A model generated the notes under the pieces. The model was not told the DNA's origin, did no database searches, and saw nothing but the letters and a program-made list of their open reading frames with translations. 10,803 nt of DNA, from assembly GCA_029051445.1 (NCBI GenBank), contig JAIDKP010000038.1, positions 1-10,803 on the forward strand, given 5' to 3'. The position numbers and the translations under genes were made by a program. Source of the DNA: Muribaculaceae bacterium (GTDB lineage: Bacteria > Bacteroidota > Bacteroidia > Bacteroidales > Muribaculaceae). Below, piece after piece: positions 1,395 through 9,175 of this stretch (the stretch's first letter is position 1; each line of letters starts with the position of its first letter).

Positions 1395-3152
1395 TTAGAT
1401 TTCGTCAGGAGTGAGTTCGTCACCGCCATAACCGGGGTTCTGTTTCAGCAGGTTGTTGGAACCTATAACCGAATCACCTACAGGCAGACGACATACATTC
1501 TTGTCATTGGTTGCTGTGTGCGACCACCAGTTTTCAGTATGGAAAACACCCCAACGGATAAGATCGATACGGCGGCGGCCCTCACCGAGGAACTCAATCA
1601 TCCATTCGTCAAGCAGACGCCACTGGTCAAGGTTGCTTGCTGTCACAGGGTTGGGATCGGCACCGCCTACGAAGTTGCGTGCACGCACCTTGTTGATCAG
1701 ATCAGCCGCACCCTGCTTGTCGCCCTTGCGGAACTTACATTCGGCAAGAGTGTAGTATACCTCGGTAAGACGAAGGACAGGCTGGGATGCCGTGCCATAA
1801 AGACGATACTCGTTTTCGTCGGGGATAGGATATTTCACCAGACGCACGCCAGCGTTCTCTTCCGCGCAATAGTACATCTCTGACGGGAGATCGGCAACAG
1901 AGTTGTATTCACCGTTGGGATTGTCGGCACTCTTGAGTTTTGAGTAAGGGGCGACAGCATCGGTAATCGAAATCATTTTGCCGTTGAGCCATGAGCGGTT
2001 ACCCGTGCATACTCGTTCGGGATAACGGTCGTCCTGAAGGTCGCCGATCAGGAACATTCCCTCATATTCGCCGTTGCCGAGATAGCGATACTTTTTCTTG
2101 CGCAGGTCGCCGTCGTCAAACTTCTCATAAGGTGAGCCAAGCTTGATTTCAGGATTAGTTTCCATATAGAGCTTGCCCTCGGGATTGCGTGAGGGTGCGA
2201 GACACCATCCGTTGTTACATGATCCCGGAAAGCCTGTGTTTATGCCGAAATACAAGCTGATCCTATAAGGGAAGAAGTTGGTCCACCAGTCGTTTTTCAT
2301 CTGTGTGTAGTCGGCCGGCACACCCCATATAATCTCGGTCGAGGACTTGTTTTCAAAGTCAAAAGAGCCGTGCCATGTGTCCTCCAGTTCATAAGGGCCA
2401 TATACTCCATTGATGATGTCCTGGCAAATCTGCTCTGCCTCGTCAAACATCTGCACTCCGATATAGCTTTCGGCATTGAAATAAAGCTCGGCAAGAAGCA
2501 TCGCTGCAGCACCCTTGCTGATATAGCCGTCGATGTCCTGGTTCACCGTCTGGCGCGCAGGTAGTCCGGCAACGGCTTCTTTCAGAAGTTCCTCGGTATA
2601 ATCAAATGTTTCCTTGGCAGTGGCACGCGGTTTCAGAGGATCGTTTGTCGACTGATATATCGGAGCTCCGCCATACCAATCCATGGTCTTCATATAGAAG
2701 TAACCGATCATCGCCTGCATCTGTCCGAGGTGTGATGCCCGGTCTTCTTCGGTAAGATTCATGGCTGAATAGTCCAGAGAGTTGATCTGTTCGATCACCG
2801 TCAGGCATCTTGCGACACCCTGCATGGCCTCTTTCCAGTTGGTGTCAGCCCGGCTATGCTCCCAGTTCATGGTATGGTCATGAAGCTGGATGTAAGCACC
2901 GTTGTCATACCAGTCGCCCGACGTACGCGACGGGTTGATCATGGCATCGGCCATAAACTCGTTAATCGAGAAAACATGCTCTGCACAAAAGACCTTCCAG
3001 TGATAGAACGGGCGAGACAGGAGCTGATATATGTTGTTCTCATTTTCCACAAAGTTGTCGGGCACGACCTGGGAGTAGTAGATCTCGTCCATATTGCAGG
3101 ATGCGAGAGCTCCGATCATTGCGGCCGACATCAGCATATTTTTGATTTTCAT
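1395..3152 (-). CDS. SusD/RagB-family nutrient-binding outer-membrane lipoprotein
   Basis: This 585-residue surface lipoprotein acts as the lid and substrate-binding partner of the SusC channel encoded just upstream. Residues 1-18 form a lipoprotein signal ending in the lipobox LAS-C19; acidic residues (MDE) follow, as in Bacteroidota surface-exported lipoproteins. The C-terminal SusD signatures are LRLTEVYYTLAECK (from 460), INKVRAR (486-492) and the EG-RRRIDLIRWG stretch (from about 524). Length is normal and the frame is uninterrupted. Its ATG lies 24 bp after the susC stop codon, so the two are co-transcribed. No glycosidase, sulfatase or sensor gene is in the window, so the substrate (glycan or peptide) cannot be assigned. 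If SusC is silent in this orientation, SusD is probably silent too. Confidence 0.95.
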   Translation of the reverse strand: MKIKNMLMSAAMIGALASCNMDEIYYSQVVPDNFVENENNIYQLLSRPFYHWKVFCAEHVFSINEFMADAMINPSRTSGDWYDNGAYIQLHDHTMNWEHSRADTNWKEAMQGVARCLTVIEQINSLDYSAMNLTEEDRASHLGQMQAMIGYFYMKTMDWYGGAPIYQSTNDPLKPRATAKETFDYTEELLKEAVAGLPARQTVNQDIDGYISKGAAAMLLAELYFNAESYIGVQMFDEAEQICQDIINGVYGPYELEDTWHGSFDFENKSSTEIIWGVPADYTQMKNDWWTNFFPYRISLYFGINTGFPGSCNNGWCLAPSRNPEGKLYMETNPEIKLGSPYEKFDDGDLRKKKYRYLGNGEYEGMFLIGDLQDDRYPERVCTGNRSWLNGKMISITDAVAPYSKLKSADNPNGEYNSVADLPSEMYYCAEENAGVRLVKYPIPDENEYRLYGTASQPVLRLTEVYYTLAECKFRKGDKQGAADLINKVRARNFVGGADPNPVTASNLDQWRLLDEWMIEFLGEGRRRIDLIRWGVFHTENWWSHTATNDKNVCRLPVGDSVIGSNNLLKQNPGYGGDELTPDEI

Positions 3153-3176: not shown

Positions 3177-5999
3177 TTAGAAAGTAAGCTGGACACCCAT
3201 TGTGGCACGGATCGTCTGCGGATAGGTGTTTTCGCCGCTCTGGAACTCGAAGCCTGGGTAAAGTCCATTGATTCTCACCTCGGGATTGAGGCCGCTGTAC
3301 TTTGTGAAAGTCGCTACGTCACGCAGTGTCAGGTAAAGACGGGCTTTCTGCAGATAGTTGGTCCACTTCGAGGTATTGAGAGTGTAACCTATGTTGATCG
3401 CGTCGATCTTGACGAATGTAGCGTCCTCAATAAAGTAGTCTGTTATGATCTTGTCACCCTTGAACTCAATATTCTGGTCATAAAGGTGCTTGATGACATT
3501 CTGGCCGGAACTCTGACTGATACCGTTGTACATGCTCGGCTGATTATAGACGTCATGGTCAAACCAACCACGCAGCTGCAGACCGAAATCAAAGTTCTTA
3601 TAGCGGATTGTATTGTTCCATGTTGCGATGATTGCCGGCATAGCGTTTCCTACATACTGCTTGTAGGAGCTCTTCAGGTTTTTCTGAGACACGATACCGT
3701 CCTCACCTCCATCAATAAGGAAATTGCCGTCTTCATCAAATCCTGCAAACTTATAGACATAGAACTGTCCGATATCGATACCGTCGGTGAGTCTGACACC
3801 GTAGCCCGGACTGCCGGGAGTCGGGAAGCCACACTGGTCAAGGTATGCGTTATCCATGCCGAGATGCTTGATCTTGCTGGAACTGTGTGAGAGACTAAGC
3901 GAGGGTGTCCATGAAAAATCTTTATTCTGGATCGCGATACCTCCGATCTCAAATTCCCAGCCTCGTGACTGCATGGAGCCTATATTGCGGAGGATCTGAT
4001 TCTCGACATAGGGAGGCTGCGGTGCGTCAACCCAATAAAGCATATTGCTGACATTGCGGTTAAACCAGTCGAATTTACCCCACAGACGTTCGTTGAAGAA
4101 CGAGAAGTCAAGACCGATGTTAAACTCTTTGCTTTCCTCCCATCTCAGATCAGGATTACCGTTGTTGGCGGGACCATAGCTGGTCAGCCATGTGCTTGTG
4201 CCAGGAATAGGATATCCGGTACCCGAACTCGTAAGACGGGTTACTGTATTTCCTGAATCGAAATCGTTGTTACCGGTAACACCATAGGCGACACGCAGTT
4301 TGAGGTCACTGAGCCAGTCACGGGTGTCGTCCATGAAACTCTCACGGCTGATGCGCCAGCCACCTGATACAGCCCAGAATGTACCCCAGCGGTTATTGGC
4401 ACCGAACTTCGAGGATGCCTCGCGGCGAACCGACGCGCTTGCCATGTACTTGTCGTCGTAGCTGTAGTTGGCACGGGCAAACATCGACAACAGACGATTG
4501 CGCGGATCCTTGCTGGAGCTCATGCCTGCAAGGCCTTCCTTAAGATAACTGCCTTCGCCGAGATTCCAGGGACCGATACCGTTGATAGAGAAGTCGGAGT
4601 TATTTGCACTGAAATTCTCTACATTTTTCTCCCAGAAAGACCAGCCGGCCGTAGCAGAGATGTTGTGTTCTCTGTTCTCGCCGAAATCCTTGATATAGTT
4701 CAGATATGCGTCATAGCTGATCTGATTTGTCTTGCTGAAAGAGTGTGATGCATAGCCGCTTTTGCCGCCTACAATCGAATTCAGATGCCTGGCATCCTCA
4801 TAGTAGGTCTGTACCCACTGGCGACGGTCGACATTGGCAGAGCCATTGAAAGTCAGGCCATCCCAGATGCGCACTTTCAATGTTGCAGTACCAAGAAGCC
4901 ACTGATCCTTTGCATTATTGGTCTTAAGCATGATATCGGCAACCGGATTGGGCCAGTCTGACCCGGTACCGTAATCCGACACATTGTAATCCGATGGACT
5001 GTTCGGGTTCATCAGTGGAATCGTCGGGTTCATGACCATTGCATTGCGCACTGTGCCATAATCGCCACGCTGGTCACGGTCAGCCTCGCGTGCCTGAAGA
5101 CGCACACCGATTTCGACACGATTGTCAAACAGCTTGTAGGTAGCGTTGATACGGCCTGAATAGTCCTTGCGACCGTCACCGATAACAATACCCTCTTGAT
5201 CTTTATACATCAGCGATGAGTAAACCGAGAGGTTGTCGGTACCACCCTGAAGAGTGATCATGTGCTGCTGCGAGAACGGATGGTCGACTGTCACTGCGTC
5301 ATACCAGTCGGTGTCGTAACCGAAGTCTGAGCCAACGCCGTTTTCCACATACTCCGCAGCTGTCATCAGGTCAGGTTTCTTACGTACAAATTCGGTGGTG
5401 AACTCACCCGTATATGTAGCATGGATCTTCCCGACTTTGGCCTGCTTGGTCGTGATGAGGATCACACCTGCAGCAGCACGTGTGCCATAGATGGCACCGG
5501 CCGAAGCGTCCTTGAGCACGTCGATGCTCTCGATATCCTCCTGAGCAACTGAACGGATGTCACCGCCGGGGACACCGTCGATAACGATCAGAGGAGTCTT
5601 TCCGGCATTAACTGAAGCAACTCCACGGAGCTGGAATCCACTCTCGTTGTTAGGAGAACTGTTGTTGTAGATTGTCAGGCCGGAGACCTTGCCCTGAAGA
5701 GCAGATCCGATATCACCGCCACCGACACCGGCAGTGAGGTCGTCGCCCTTGATCGAGGTGATAGACGAGGTCACCTGCTTCTTTTGCATCGAACCGTAGC
5801 CGATGACCACGACGTCGTCGAGGACTTTGCTGTCTTCGAGCAGGGTGACGGTGATGGAGGTGCGGCCCTTGAGGGCGATCTCCTGGGGTGTGTAGCCTAC
5901 GGCCGAAACAAGAAGTGTGGCGTTGGCGTCGACACCGGTGAGGACAAAGTTGCCGTCCAGATCGGCGGCGGCACCCTTCTGTGTCCCTTTGACGAGCAA
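3177..5999 (-). CDS. SusC/RagA-family TonB-dependent transporter, 5'-truncated (silent cassette?)
   Basis: The product is a TonB-dependent outer-membrane importer that pairs with the downstream SusD. The 940 residues seen comprise the last part of the carboxypeptidase-regulatory-like domain (1-52), a TonB-box-like DDVVVIGYG (61-69), the plug (about 70-186, with LRG and PLIVIDGVPGG) and the barrel, ending in QLTF with the usual terminal Phe. Missing are the ATG, the signal peptide and the first strand(s) of the N-terminal domain, perhaps 45-60 residues. The reading frame is open only back to 6017, with a TAG at 6018-6020. The TTG at 5999 has no credible ribosome site and would not give an exported protein. 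No TAnnTTTG box lies in 6000-6060. The first 70-80 codons are about 60% GC, against roughly 40-47% in sampled barrel segments. The loss occurs beside a tyrosine recombinase gene, so a recombinational cassette is more likely than random decay. Confidence 0.9.
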   Translation of the reverse strand: MLVKGTQKGAAADLDGNFVLTGVDANATLLVSAVGYTPQEIALKGRTSITVTLLEDSKVLDDVVVIGYGSMQKKQVTSSITSIKGDDLTAGVGGGDIGSALQGKVSGLTIYNNSSPNNESGFQLRGVASVNAGKTPLIVIDGVPGGDIRSVAQEDIESIDVLKDASAGAIYGTRAAAGVILITTKQAKVGKIHATYTGEFTTEFVRKKPDLMTAAEYVENGVGSDFGYDTDWYDAVTVDHPFSQQHMITLQGGTDNLSVYSSLMYKDQEGIVIGDGRKDYSGRINATYKLFDNRVEIGVRLQAREADRDQRGDYGTVRNAMVMNPTIPLMNPNSPSDYNVSDYGTGSDWPNPVADIMLKTNNAKDQWLLGTATLKVRIWDGLTFNGSANVDRRQWVQTYYEDARHLNSIVGGKSGYASHSFSKTNQISYDAYLNYIKDFGENREHNISATAGWSFWEKNVENFSANNSDFSINGIGPWNLGEGSYLKEGLAGMSSSKDPRNRLLSMFARANYSYDDKYMASASVRREASSKFGANNRWGTFWAVSGGWRISRESFMDDTRDWLSDLKLRVAYGVTGNNDFDSGNTVTRLTSSGTGYPIPGTSTWLTSYGPANNGNPDLRWEESKEFNIGLDFSFFNERLWGKFDWFNRNVSNMLYWVDAPQPPYVENQILRNIGSMQSRGWEFEIGGIAIQNKDFSWTPSLSLSHSSSKIKHLGMDNAYLDQCGFPTPGSPGYGVRLTDGIDIGQFYVYKFAGFDEDGNFLIDGGEDGIVSQKNLKSSYKQYVGNAMPAIIATWNNTIRYKNFDFGLQLRGWFDHDVYNQPSMYNGISQSSGQNVIKHLYDQNIEFKGDKIITDYFIEDATFVKIDAINIGYTLNTSKWTNYLQKARLYLTLRDVATFTKYSGLNPEVRINGLYPGFEFQSGENTYPQTIRATMGVQLTF

Positions 6000-6096
6000 T
6001 CTGATTCTTGCTGAGATCTATGTTCTATAGTGTATTGCGGTTGCTTGAGGCTGTGCCGGGCGACTACCGGGCGACTACGTGAGGCACCGGCGGATG
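6000..6096. other. Junction between truncated susC and recombinase gene
   Basis: This 97-bp non-coding segment starts where SusC homology stops. It contains CTATGTTCTATAG (6018-6030), an imperfect palindrome with 4-bp arms, and a tandem direct repeat at 6058-6079. No promoter box for susC is visible on the minus strand. It is the place where a recombination crossover with an expressed susC 5' end would fall, probably in the shared coding bases at about 5980-6000. Confidence 0.5.
6058..6079. repeat. Two 11-bp direct repeats downstream of the recombinase gene
   Basis: GGGCGACTACC (6058-6068) is followed at once by GGGCGACTACG (6069-6079), matching at 10 of 11 positions. The GACTACCG core recurs in the same orientation and with the same 11-bp spacing at 7471-7487 on the other side of the recombinase gene. 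One helical turn of spacing suits cooperative protein binding, such as recombinase arm sites. No binding evidence exists here. Confidence 0.65.
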
Positions 6097-7425
6097 TCAG
6101 AGAAGATTGATGAGGTCACGTTTCATTTCTTCGTCGATGTCGCGGTATCGTGCGAATGCCTTGCTGCCGTCTTTGTGGCCTGAGAGGCGGCCGACGAGGC
6201 TCGGGTCTTTGACTTTTTTGTACAGGTTGCCTACAAAGGTGCGTCTGGCGAGGTGGCTGGTGGCTATCTCGTTTATCGGGCGCTGCTCCTCGAGTCCGGT
6301 CAGAGGATTGAGTATCGTGACCGTGCGTGTAATGCCGCACTGCAGGAATATTCTTTTGATTGCTTCGTTGTAGCGTTGGGCTGAGGTGAATGGCAGGAGT
6401 CGTCCGTCGGGTAGGTCGCGGTAGCGTTTTATGATTGTTGCGGCCTGCGGGTGCAGCGGTACGCGTATTACTTCGGGATGTCTCTGTCTTGTCTTTCCGG
6501 CGATGTATTCTACAGCTCCGCCTATGATGTTGCCGGCGGTAAGGCGCATCAGGTCGGAGACACGGCATCCGATCAGGCAATGGAAGATGAATATGTCGCG
6601 TTGTGCGGCAAGGTGTGTGTCGTGCGAGAGGTCGGTTTGTGCTATTATGTTGCGCTCGTCAATGGTGATGTAGTATGGCGTGCCGTATAGTTCGGCCTTT
6701 ATGCCGTTGTAGCGGGCAAACGGGCGGTTGTCGGTGAATTCCTGGTTGTAGCACCAGTTGAAGAAAGCCCTCAATGCGTTCAACAGGTTTACAATAGTGT
6801 TGTTTCCGCGTGGAAGCGGTCCGGCGTTTTTTCCGATTGAAGCGCGGTAGTCGTTGTAAATCTCAGGATATCGGGTGTGTATTTTGTGCTCGTCGCGCAG
6901 GAAGTTTTCAAAGTCGGTGATGTCGGCAGTGGTGAATGTGGAGATGTGTATGACGAACGGGGTGCCGTTTTCGGCGGTCCGGAAGGCTTCGTAGCGTCTG
7001 AGCGCTCGCCTGAGCACCCGATAGCGTTTTACCCGCCAATCCGAAAACTGGTGCGTGCTCAGATATTGTTCAAAAATTTCGTGAAACGGGTGCTGTGACG
7101 TGTTGCCGGCCGACCGGTGAAGATAGTCATGCAGTTTGCTGATGAAGTACTGTCGTGACAGCATATGCCGGGATGTCATGGTGGCTATGCGCAGAAGGTA
7201 CTGCTCGATTGCAGTCAGGTCTGATTCGATCTTCTGTATCTCCTCGGCTTCGGCGCGGTCGGCGCGCGGTCTGACGAATGATCCGTTCTTGAATCGTGAG
7301 GGGGATATGTATAGCCCTGTGTGGATGCGGGGCTGGATCCCCCGTGCGACAGAAATGCGCAGGATAATTTCGGATTTGCCCGAGCTGTTGACTTTTTTCG
7401 ATAGTTCGCGTTTTGTAGTTGCCAT
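6097..7425 (-). CDS. Tyrosine recombinase (phage-integrase family)
   Basis: This 442-residue site-specific recombinase breaks and rejoins DNA through a 3'-phosphotyrosine. The layout is that of Bacteroidota integrases: an N-terminal arm-binding-like domain (about 1-60), a SAM-like core-binding domain (about 110-225, including the NALRAFFNWC region) and a catalytic domain (about 250-442). All six catalytic residues are visible: R288 (GCRVSDL), K311 (AGKTRQ), H391 and R394 (SHLARRTF), H417 (LSGHKDG) and nucleophile Y427 (FARYRD). It should be active. The ATG at 7425 opens the conserved N-terminus (MATTKREL). It lies on the same strand as, and 97 bp upstream of, a susC without a start. No conjugation, phage or cargo genes are nearby, which favours a DNA-inversion or shuffling enzyme over the integrase of a large element, though a remnant integrase is possible. 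Confidence 0.93.
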   Translation of the reverse strand: MATTKRELSKKVNSSGKSEIILRISVARGIQPRIHTGLYISPSRFKNGSFVRPRADRAEAEEIQKIESDLTAIEQYLLRIATMTSRHMLSRQYFISKLHDYLHRSAGNTSQHPFHEIFEQYLSTHQFSDWRVKRYRVLRRALRRYEAFRTAENGTPFVIHISTFTTADITDFENFLRDEHKIHTRYPEIYNDYRASIGKNAGPLPRGNNTIVNLLNALRAFFNWCYNQEFTDNRPFARYNGIKAELYGTPYYITIDERNIIAQTDLSHDTHLAAQRDIFIFHCLIGCRVSDLMRLTAGNIIGGAVEYIAGKTRQRHPEVIRVPLHPQAATIIKRYRDLPDGRLLPFTSAQRYNEAIKRIFLQCGITRTVTILNPLTGLEEQRPINEIATSHLARRTFVGNLYKKVKDPSLVGRLSGHKDGSKAFARYRDIDEEMKRDLINLL

Positions 7426-7447
7426 GGCTGAAATTTTAAGTTATGTC

Positions 7448-7491
7448 ATGGCAAATGTATGGCAAATTCTGACTACCGTCTGACTACCCGC
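7448..7491. repeat. Four consecutive 11-bp repeats upstream of the recombinase gene
   Basis: Two 11-mers of one type (ATGGCAAATGT at 7448, then ATGGCAAATTC at 7459) are followed without a gap by two of another (TGACTACCGTC at 7470, then TGACTACCCGC at 7481). The second type shares GACTACCG with the repeat pair at 6058-6079. ATGGCAA also occurs in the opposite orientation at the recombinase start codon (7419-7425). The block overlaps the likely promoter of the recombinase gene, so it may serve both as binding sites and for autoregulation; both roles are inference. Confidence 0.7.
7452..7459 (-). promoter_or_regulatory. -7 promoter box of the recombinase gene
   Basis: The minus strand reads TACATTTG, matching TAnnTTTG, 26 bp upstream of the ATG at 7425. 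The implied transcript has a leader of about 20 nt. The box falls inside the first two 11-bp repeats, so a protein bound there would block it. No -33 TTTG at standard spacing is visible. Confidence 0.45.
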
Positions 7492-7519
7492 TTGCCTGCC
7501 TGATGATTGGCAGATGCTG

Positions 7520-8242
7520 TCATTCGAAATAGAATGTCACGACAACCATCGATGATGTGGCACGCTTTACGGCTTGTGTGAAACGCATTGTGGCCGGATC
7601 GTCGGCGAGATCGTGCCGGTCGTGCTGAAGCATGTCGCATAGGCCGAAACAGAATTTGACCTCAGGGATCAACTTGAAGTATGGAAGGTAGAAGTCGCAT
7701 CCGATGCCTACGGTCAGGTACAGGTCGGCGGTGCGCAACATCAGTGTCTCGGCACGCTTTTTGGCGACATCGAAGGCCGGCATCAGTCCGCCTGACAGGT
7801 AGGGGCGTGAGTTGCGGTAGCGCTGTCCCGAGAATTTCAGATCCAGGGGGAGAACGAGAAATGTTGATTTCAGTGTCTGTGAGACCGTCTGGCCTGATGT
7901 GTATTCGCGCATCTTCACATCGCGGCTTCCGAAGTAAAGCCCGGGCGTGAAGCGTAGGTTGAACCAGCGGCTGAGCCTTATGTCGCCCACGGCTCCGACG
8001 CAGAATCCCGGGGAGTAGGAGGGCTGTTCGGCATACCACTCTGTGCCGTCGTAGGCGATCTGTCCGGTGTTGGCAAAGGTCATGTCCTGAAAGTGGAAAC
8101 CTGCGGAGAAGCCGAGGTGGCATCGTCGCAAGTCGGCATAAGGCCGGTTCATCGGGCCGTGTCCTGTCGGCGCACACCATGACTGCGGTGACACTATCAG
8201 CAGCAGGGCGATGGCTACGATGTAGCGAAGCAGGTTACTCAT
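7520..8242 (-). CDS. PorT-family outer-membrane beta-barrel protein
   Basis: This 240-residue protein resembles the PorT/SprT family, whose characterised members serve type IX secretion. Bacteroidales without that system also carry relatives. A signal peptide covers about residues 1-24 (hydrophobic core IVAIALLLIV, likely cut after SWCA). The family segment NRPYADLRRCHLGFSAGF (32-49) follows, then alternating barrel strands such as FNLRFTPGLYFGS and YLPYFKLIPEVKFCFGL, and the end TFYFE. The ATG at 8242 is chosen because it makes an ATGAGTAA overlap with the stop of the WYL gene; the frame extends only to a TTG at 8251. Translation is probably coupled to the WYL gene. No other type IX secretion gene is in view, so a secretion role is not shown. 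Confidence 0.8.
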   Translation of the reverse strand: MSNLLRYIVAIALLLIVSPQSWCAPTGHGPMNRPYADLRRCHLGFSAGFHFQDMTFANTGQIAYDGTEWYAEQPSYSPGFCVGAVGDIRLSRWFNLRFTPGLYFGSRDVKMREYTSGQTVSQTLKSTFLVLPLDLKFSGQRYRNSRPYLSGGLMPAFDVAKKRAETLMLRTADLYLTVGIGCDFYLPYFKLIPEVKFCFGLCDMLQHDRHDLADDPATMRFTQAVKRATSSMVVVTFYFE

Positions 8243-9137
8243 AGTTGGCAAGGGCTTTGCGCAGCTGGTCTTTCACCATGGCGCGCAGTTCGTCGGGAGC
8301 CTCTACGGTGACATCTCCTCCCATTGATATGATTTCAGATACCAGGTCGGGGGTCAGCCGCAGCCGGTAGGTGAACACCGAGAATCCGTCGTGTATGTAT
8401 TCGTCCTGGCTGTGGTGCAGCGGTAGCGTCCTGAGGTATCTTGCGCGCCGGGAGTCGACACGGAGTCTGATATCATGCGGTTTTCCCATCGAGAATATGA
8501 CACCGAAAGAGTCGGAGGAGTAGGTTGTCGCATCAAAGTCGGCCGGAATCTCGAATGTTCCCGGAAGCATTGATGCCTTTACAATGCGGTCGAGAGCATA
8601 TGTCTTGATTTTTCCGTCGGCAGTGTTTCGTCCGGTCATGTACCAACGCTGTCTCAGTAGATTAAGGAAGTAGGGTTCGACTACGACATCGCGCGAAGGG
8701 TTCACACGTGTGTAAGGAGCGTAGTCGAACTGCACTGGATGGTTGTGTTTTACCGCGTCGATGACGATGTTCAGATGTTCGCGCGCCGATGGAATGTCCT
8801 CAAGGAAAATGCGGGATGAAATCTGCCTTGACTCGCTTACCACGCTGCTTGTCGCCGCCGAGTTGAGCAGCCAGTCGGTGATGGTGGCTCCGCGTCGCGG
8901 CTCGTCGCTTTCCTCGATGTAATATTCGAAAGTCGAGGAATTGTAGCGTATTTCGATGCCGAATACATCCTCGATGGCACGACGGTAGTTGTAGAATGTG
9001 CGCCGGGGTATTGTCTCGCCGTGAGACGAGAACTGTGACATACTCCACCGCTCCCTGATCTGTTCGAACGATATGCGTCGGTAGCGCCTTATAGTGTCGA
9101 CGATCCATATATAGCGTGAGAGTAGGTCGCGTGCCAT
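8235..9137 (-). CDS. WYL-domain transcriptional regulator
   Basis: This 300-residue cytoplasmic DNA-binding regulator has an N-terminal winged-helix region (about 1-75, with PRRTFYNYRRAIEDVFGI at 44-61). The WYL domain (about 125-190) contains the motif as W165-Y166-M167 within LRQRWYMTGR. A C-terminal extension (about 215-300) resembles the WCX segment. WYL domains bind ligands or nucleic acid and control many regulons; the ligand here is unknown. The ATG at 9137 (MARDLL) is preferred over the TTG at 9170, because the TAnnTTTG box at 9168-9175 would place the transcript start downstream of 9170. The stop overlaps the PorT-family ATG, forming a two-gene operon. It diverges from the DUF2851 gene, so it could also act on that promoter, which is inference. 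Confidence 0.9.
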   Translation of the reverse strand: MARDLLSRYIWIVDTIRRYRRISFEQIRERWSMSQFSSHGETIPRRTFYNYRRAIEDVFGIEIRYNSSTFEYYIEESDEPRRGATITDWLLNSAATSSVVSESRQISSRIFLEDIPSAREHLNIVIDAVKHNHPVQFDYAPYTRVNPSRDVVVEPYFLNLLRQRWYMTGRNTADGKIKTYALDRIVKASMLPGTFEIPADFDATTYSSDSFGVIFSMGKPHDIRLRVDSRRARYLRTLPLHHSQDEYIHDGFSVFTYRLRLTPDLVSEIISMGGDVTVEAPDELRAMVKDQLRKALANYE

Positions 9138-9167
9138 GACAGTCAAAGTGGTTAATGCGTTTATATG

Positions 9168-9175
9168 CAAAAATA
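9168..9175 (-). promoter_or_regulatory. -7 promoter box of the WYL-PorT operon
   Basis: The minus strand reads TATTTTTG, matching TAnnTTTG, 30 bp upstream of the chosen ATG at 9137. This gives a leader of about 25 nt and helps decide the start codon. A TTTG -33 box at the usual distance is not evident. Confidence 0.5.

Follow-up and report, generated by a model that had tools for sequence, protein, structure and literature searches.

A likely inversion switch of SusC/SusD transporters beside an integrase-like recombinase in a Muribaculaceae genome

Why does a SusC gene that lacks its 5' end lie, otherwise complete, beside an intact tyrosine recombinase gene? The question is raised by a stretch of 10,803 nucleotides from a Muribaculaceae bacterium (contig JAIDKP010000038.1 of assembly GCA_029051445.1; hereafter the window), which is the entire contig C312 of a metagenome-assembled genome (MAG; G000) of 494 contigs and 88% completeness. 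Its minus strand carries genes for SusD (1395-3152), a SusC body (3177-5999), a tyrosine recombinase (6097-7425), PorT (7520-8251) and a WYL regulator (8235-9170). SusC/SusD pairs are surface-exposed and decide which glycans are imported by gut Bacteroidota. The original prediction, made from the window alone, took this pair for a silent cassette, in the OFF state, of a transporter-switching system. We compared the window with its own genome and with the other members of the genus sample (G001, G002 and G003) and consider it likely that the window is the silent half of an inversion switch for SusC/SusD pairs, in which a domesticated integrase acts partly in trans.

The silent SusC body, its partner and the shared core

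The SusC open reading frame (ORF) at 3177-5999 (-) encodes 940 aa and is intact to its terminal F. It matches TIGR04056 (SusC/RagA family) from profile position 22 and contains the Plug and barrel domains with a partial CarbopepD_reg_2, TTG being the first possible start. Homology to SusC is lost at base 5998, where the first matching residues are L-V-K-G-T-Q-K, and an in-frame stop lies eight codons upstream of L-V-K-G. The seven codons between (I-S-A-R-I-R-L) include no ATG and are too few for a signal peptide, and a scan limited to sigma-70-type promoter-like sites found none at 5900-6200. The sharp stop near 6000 and the lack of start codon, signal peptide and promoter box had both been noted from the sequence and are both borne out. 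The SusD of the silent pair (1395-3152, -; 585 aa; Pfam SusD_RagB PF07980 and PF14322) is also intact, and in the silent pairs that are fully assembled, those of the window and of G003, both genes are intact ORFs. In three 5'-less SusC copies from three species (the window, G001:C79 and G003:C11) homology begins at the identical codon, which argues that the boundary is not due to chance, while identity upstream of it is 16-39% in all pairs containing a 5'-less copy. On G001:C79 the SusC homology downstream of the recombinase sets in at this base too, with 184 bp left before the contig end.

A partner with a 5' end was expected to lie outside the window. Searching the own genome with window 5700-6400 led to four other places, of which contig C49 is the key one. 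Its SusC has a start codon, a conserved upstream region and, judged by eye, a signal peptide, and is preceded by two genes that we take to be nadK- and nadD-like. Within this complete SusC, 206 bp are identical to window 5793-5998 (-), starting exactly at 5998 and diverging on both sides, with 0 identical bases upstream on recount; blastn gives 216/221 over 5778-5998. The two SusC bodies share 43% residue identity over 680 aligned residues, and the genome holds alternative forms of SusC, one with a 5' end (C49) and one without (the window). C49 ends within SusC, and its SusD would fall past the contig end. The bases at 5975-6000, for which a second copy had been predicted, have one further own-genome copy in that spelling (C49:2903), inside the complete SusC. 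The upstream region is conserved among five expressed SusC copies of the genus, and in all five the start precedes the shared boundary sequence by about 49 codons. The 5' end of this locus (locus B) also occurs on G003:C30, behind nadK and nadD; there, several other genes separate nadD from SusC. The 5'-less boundary, the C49 partner and the same boundary on G001:C79 and G003:C11 together support the silent, OFF-state reading of the window pair.

The crossover region predicted at about 5980-6000 coincides with a 25-bp candidate core at 5974-5998 (-). The four locus B copies, which come from three species, agree in all of the first 25 bases, and conservation over the next 159 columns is 73%. 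The second SusC locus (locus A, with transketolase, PPTase and SusC, in G003) encodes the same peptide in another spelling, which is alike across species except at two third positions within the first 23 bases. A search for all synonymous spellings of LVKGTQK (Leu as CTN) gave 8 matches in three genomes, all of them SusC cores (4 of locus B in one spelling and 4 of locus A in another, which varies at one third position), and 0 in G002, the genome without a recombinase match at 1e-60. Between species, the core codons of locus B are identical in 7/7 cases versus 20-21/44 downstream for the pairs with G000 and 35/47 for G003 with G001; at locus A, 5-7/7 core codons are identical versus 20-35 of 41-47 downstream. 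Both cores share the reading phase. No further copy of the core was found in the window with up to two mismatches allowed, and viral contigs gave 0 matches. New here is a putative 25-bp core within coding sequence, with a locus-specific synonymous spelling kept across species. A 12-nt inverted partner of the core (92%; 5986-5997 / 6654-6665) falls inside the recombinase gene and is probably due to chance.

An integrase-like recombinase and its arm-like repeats

The recombinase (6097-7425, -; 442 aa) has an arm-binding-like, SAM-like and catalytic layout according to domain search, alignment and fold prediction. Residues R288, K311, H391, R394, H417 and Y427, which are presumably the catalytic ones, are invariant in 12 aligned homologues. 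The gene had been described as intact, with R-K-H-R-H-Y residues and in the orientation of SusC, all of which holds, and as beginning 97 bp from the SusC boundary, which does not, because it is the 3' end that lies there. Sequence searches of PDB gave 4 weak acetyltransferase matches (best E 0.022) and a profile search none at 0.01, and therefore the predicted fold was used (mean predicted local distance difference test, pLDDT, 78; predicted template modelling score, pTM, 0.51). It shows three strands and a helix at the N-terminus, and its best match is full-length lambda Int (1z1b; E 4.7e-08, template modelling score 0.45/0.55), but with a root-mean-square deviation of 14.7.

In a tree of 72 rows, the three recombinases of the genus form a clade (100/100) in an eight-row group (99/95) together with integrases of G154, G105 and G230, which carry the same GTAGTC repeat as the window. 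The recombinase is lambda-Int-like and groups with island integrases bearing this repeat, which is new here. Homologues at 1e-40 occur in 91/397 genomes of the family, the own genus included, in neighbourhoods that are island- or prophage-like by inspection. Outside the genus, 17 integrase stretches (L070-L086) contain no SusC or SusD match at 1e-4. Among 58 contig loci, 5 have a SusC match at 1e-8. One of these (L126) is G001 itself; the others (L134, L136, L139 and L165), judged by SusC identity (distant, 26-28%) and by spacing (2.5 to 8.5 kb from the recombinase), were not taken as switchers. Within the genus, the recombinase is present at 1e-60 in three of the four genomes, G002 (91% complete) having none, and in G001 and G003 it stands beside PorT, WYL and DUF2851 as in the window. 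The G003 copy is cut by a contig end, and its silent flank lies beyond the contig.

The tandem repeat GTAGTC-N5-GTAGTC (period 11) occurs twice in the window, versus a mean of 0.00 in 200 shuffles. One copy (6062-6078, -) lies 63 bp from the core and the other (7471-7487, -) 45 bp upstream of the recombinase start, a position that it holds in 3/3 orthologues of the genus. The four genomes contain nine matches, seven of which lie at recombinase promoters (3) or silent cores (2 in locus B silent flanks and 2 in the locus A silent flank of G003), the remaining 2 lying in long open frames; G002 has 0, and the reversed control pattern gave one match in the four genomes. The tandem stands beside 3/3 silent cores found, one of them with no recombinase nearby, and in 3/3 recombinase promoters, which is also new here. 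Three matches, two to the arm pattern and one to the core pattern (G003:C30:6726, G000:C460:849 and G003:C29:1530), were judged to be chance because they lie within long open frames.

Repeats of period 11 are also found upstream of 17/20 recombinase homologues with mechanically assigned starts, and of 19/20 after four starts (L070, L074, L077 and L086) were shifted by hand, versus 363/4000 random stretches and 0-5/20 for other periods; the 20 homologues are related, some nearly identical, and do not count as 20 independent events. The letters of the repeat differ between integrase groups. In G154, GTAGTC repeats lie near both ends of an element of about 3.4 kb; its att repeat, 14 bp long, corresponds to the 3' end of tRNA-Arg. 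At the far end the repeat is 64 bp from the att repeat in G154 and 60 bp in G105, where att was inferred from a 12-bp repeat, close to the 63 bp between repeat and core in the window. By their position near the core, at the promoter and on the silent side, the GTAGTC tandems qualify as putative arm-type repeats. The integrase groups among L071-L086 have upstream 11-bp-period tandem repeats of their own, which offer a handle for predicting arm sites.

Evidence for an inverted layout comes from locus A of the sister species. On G003:C11, a complete SusC/SusD pair faces an inverted, convergent, 5'-less SusC/SusD pair, the cores being separated by about 9.4 kb; this layout was observed at locus A of G003 only. 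The two copies share 24 bp at the boundary, are then 75-78% identical over the next 160 bp, and have a 62-bp identical block at the TonB box. In the own genome, a solitary inverted locus A core (L223 3210-3232), non-coding and identical over 23 bp to the expressed core, sits between SusD and a gene that we take to be DUF5009-like, at the place taken in G003 by the silent pair. The SusC body of that silent pair (L068 10101-12947) is 76% identical to an own-genome SusC (L009 1443-4757) that has a different N-terminus and whose neighbours are presumably sigma/anti-sigma-like; SusC bodies seem to move between contexts, judging by such similarities. A short mismatch stretch at the end of C41 (L007 1-130) against the overlapping start of C297 is probably an assembly artefact.

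The proposed switch and its rivals

In the proposed switch, the other half would be C49, where a fixed upstream region, start and signal peptide precede another SusC body. If two inverted cores in the CarbopepD segment (L-V-K-G-T-Q-K) crossed over, the SusC/SusD bodies would be swapped, and the proteins would stay in frame either way, because the two cores are in phase. The enzyme that catalyses this crossover is probably the recombinase next to the silent core. It probably derives from an island integrase and binds the GTAGTC tandems on the silent side and at its own promoter, where it may regulate itself, and it probably serves the second SusC locus in trans. The arm repeats would remain outside the inversion, and therefore the body beside them would always be the silent one. 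A more tentative extension, possible though somewhat doubtful, is that the domesticated integrase switches transporters at two or more loci in trans, that arm repeats confined to the silent side make those sites attL/attR-like and leave the expressed cores bare and attB-like, that arm occupancy and the recombinase promoter perhaps set direction and rate, and that the locus-specific spellings confine recombination to each locus. Bodies would be gained or lost as cassettes at the cores, as the solitary inverted core of the own genome suggests.

Several observations weigh against such a switch. The data come from four fragmentary genomes only; C49 and C312 are unlinked contigs, whose linkage and inverted layout we infer, and inversion itself is read from structure, the alternative joins being present in no second assembly. 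At 206 bp, the identity is longer than a crossover site requires, and homologous exchange may have produced it. Expressed copies also agree in most codons upstream of the core (34/42 for C49 with G003:C30), and therefore part of the core conservation may belong to a conserved 5' module. The N-terminus of the recombinase scores 15.9 bits against PF17293 (Arm-DNA-bind_5), below the cut-off of 22.6, and L070, which the tree places closest to the genus clade (support 87/96), does not have the repeat in its exact form. The spacing from arm repeat to core varies (63 bp in the window, 51 in G001, and 40), and no arm repeat was found near the five expressed cores on their contigs. Locus A of the own genome has no silent pair, and its solitary inverted core has no arm repeat; the 20 kb of G003:C11 that were examined contain no recombinase match, so that action in trans has to be assumed there.

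One rival explanation is that an island integrase inserted at the SusC core, which served it as attachment site, that a later rearrangement broke SusC, and that nothing switches today. The relatives of the recombinase are indeed island integrases, whose elements carry the window's repeat near either end, and the distance from repeat to core resembles that at the far ends of G154 and G105. However, direct repeats of at least 12 nt at 5900-8300 form 5 families, none of which joins both recombinase flanks as the att ends of an integrative element would, and the core occurs once in the window. PorT is present in 36/41 relatives, which marks the PorT side as backbone. Silent SusC and SusD are still intact, the arrangement is retained in three species, the silent pair of G003 locus A is inverted and has arm repeats with no integrase, and the genome also holds a complete SusC with this core; we therefore regard such a remnant as unlikely. 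Simple disruption of SusC does not fit either. As it would predict, a relative of another genus (G133) has no recombinase match at 1e-40 and does have a complete SusC/SusD pair, which shares the 5' module and whose core spelling has drifted; no arm repeat was found in the 20 kb covered out of 24.8 kb. The missing recombinase match is weak evidence, since G133 is 56% complete, and disruption does not account for the own genome, which keeps a complete SusC with the same 5' end.

Slightly less probable than the element remnant is an origin of the 206 bp in RecA-type homologous recombination or in gene conversion between paralogous SusC genes, with the recombinase an unrelated neighbour. An identity longer than a site-specific core is what this would give, as is the 62-bp TonB-box block in the locus A copies of G003, but those copies share only 24 bp at the boundary before falling to 75-78%, the boundary lies at the same codon three times, and arm-like repeats link the recombinase to the silent cores. 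A chimeric contig joining a SusC body to the recombinase region would be conceivable in a MAG of 494 contigs, the more so as two contigs stop shortly after the core (184 bp beyond it in G001:C79, about 250 bp in G003:C30), as contigs tend to do near a repeat. The G001 assembly has the identical join at the same base, with arm repeats in both spacers, which largely refutes an artefact and makes it very improbable. An inversion switch thus remains the reading that we prefer.

Related systems and other features of the window

A plan of one fixed 5' end and alternative 3' bodies is shared by the R64 Rci shufflon and by shufflons of type I restriction-modification (R-M) specificity genes, which carry other cargo, Rci being a recombinase of another type than that of the window. 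Rci is named in the abstract of PMC11852207, and R-M shufflons in excerpts of PMC5729914. Closer in cargo is Bacteroides fragilis, for which the portions of PMC4747536 consulted describe Tsr0667-driven shufflon-type inversions at three SusC/SusD clusters; one invertase there acts on these three clusters and nine other regions (excerpts of PMC4747536 and PMC5729914). In strain NCTC 9343, the inverted repeats of Region EE extend over the susC start codon, and an invertible promoter lies ahead of the region (excerpt of PMC5729914). The window resembles Region EE and the Tsr0667 shufflon in having alternative SusC/SusD pairs that would be brought to an expression site by inversion, as judged here from sequence. 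Unlike in Region EE, about 49 codons separate the core from the start codon, and therefore the upstream region and signal peptide would stay fixed. The recombinase may also differ, being integrase-like with arm-like repeats. Pairs in inverted orientation, as in the Bacteroides shufflon, were seen here at locus A of G003; the window and C49 are on separate contigs.

The recombinase resembles the lambda Int and IntCTnDOT group in its best fold match (1z1b), in the three strands and helix predicted at its N-terminus, and in tandem arm-like repeats near a putative core. Unlike these integrases, it is not at a recognisable element end and has no matching far-side repeat, and it would, if our reading is right, invert between chromosomal gene copies. 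According to excerpts of PMC8138268, tyrosine recombinases of mobile elements are said to arise by gain of an arm-binding domain, and some tyrosine recombinases, which the excerpts assign to no particular group, are switches that act by DNA inversion. The present case appears to combine SusC shufflon inversion with an arm-binding-like integrase, as a variant of the known Bacteroides SusC shufflon. Among open-licence papers, searches on Muribaculaceae SusC with DNA inversion returned nothing related by title, and those on Duncaniella phase variation and on programmed inversions with SusC and a recombinase returned none. If true, the switch would swap a whole transporter behind one start region and signal peptide and so diversify diet and phage exposure within a clone, and it would extend SusC shuffling to the Muribaculaceae. 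It would also represent an integrase-type recombinase turned inverter, whose arm repeats could be used to seek further target loci in other genomes.

PorT/SprT (7520-8251, -; NF052311), a component of the type IX secretion system (T9SS), is the conserved recombinase neighbour in G001 and G003; in the window it stands apart from the genes, presumably T9SS-like, that follow PorT in most of eight relatives. A small Cys-rich protein (1047-1319, +) faces the SusD end and has no Pfam match. It may be a cassette companion, as tblastx found similar sequence behind the locus A SusD (C297). Near the start of the window, an IS200-like Y1 transposase gene (120-563, -) is bracketed by a 43-bp inverted repeat (98%; 76-118 / 589-631), and beside it, at about 670-860, a GC-rich unit is repeated in imperfect tandem (by eye).

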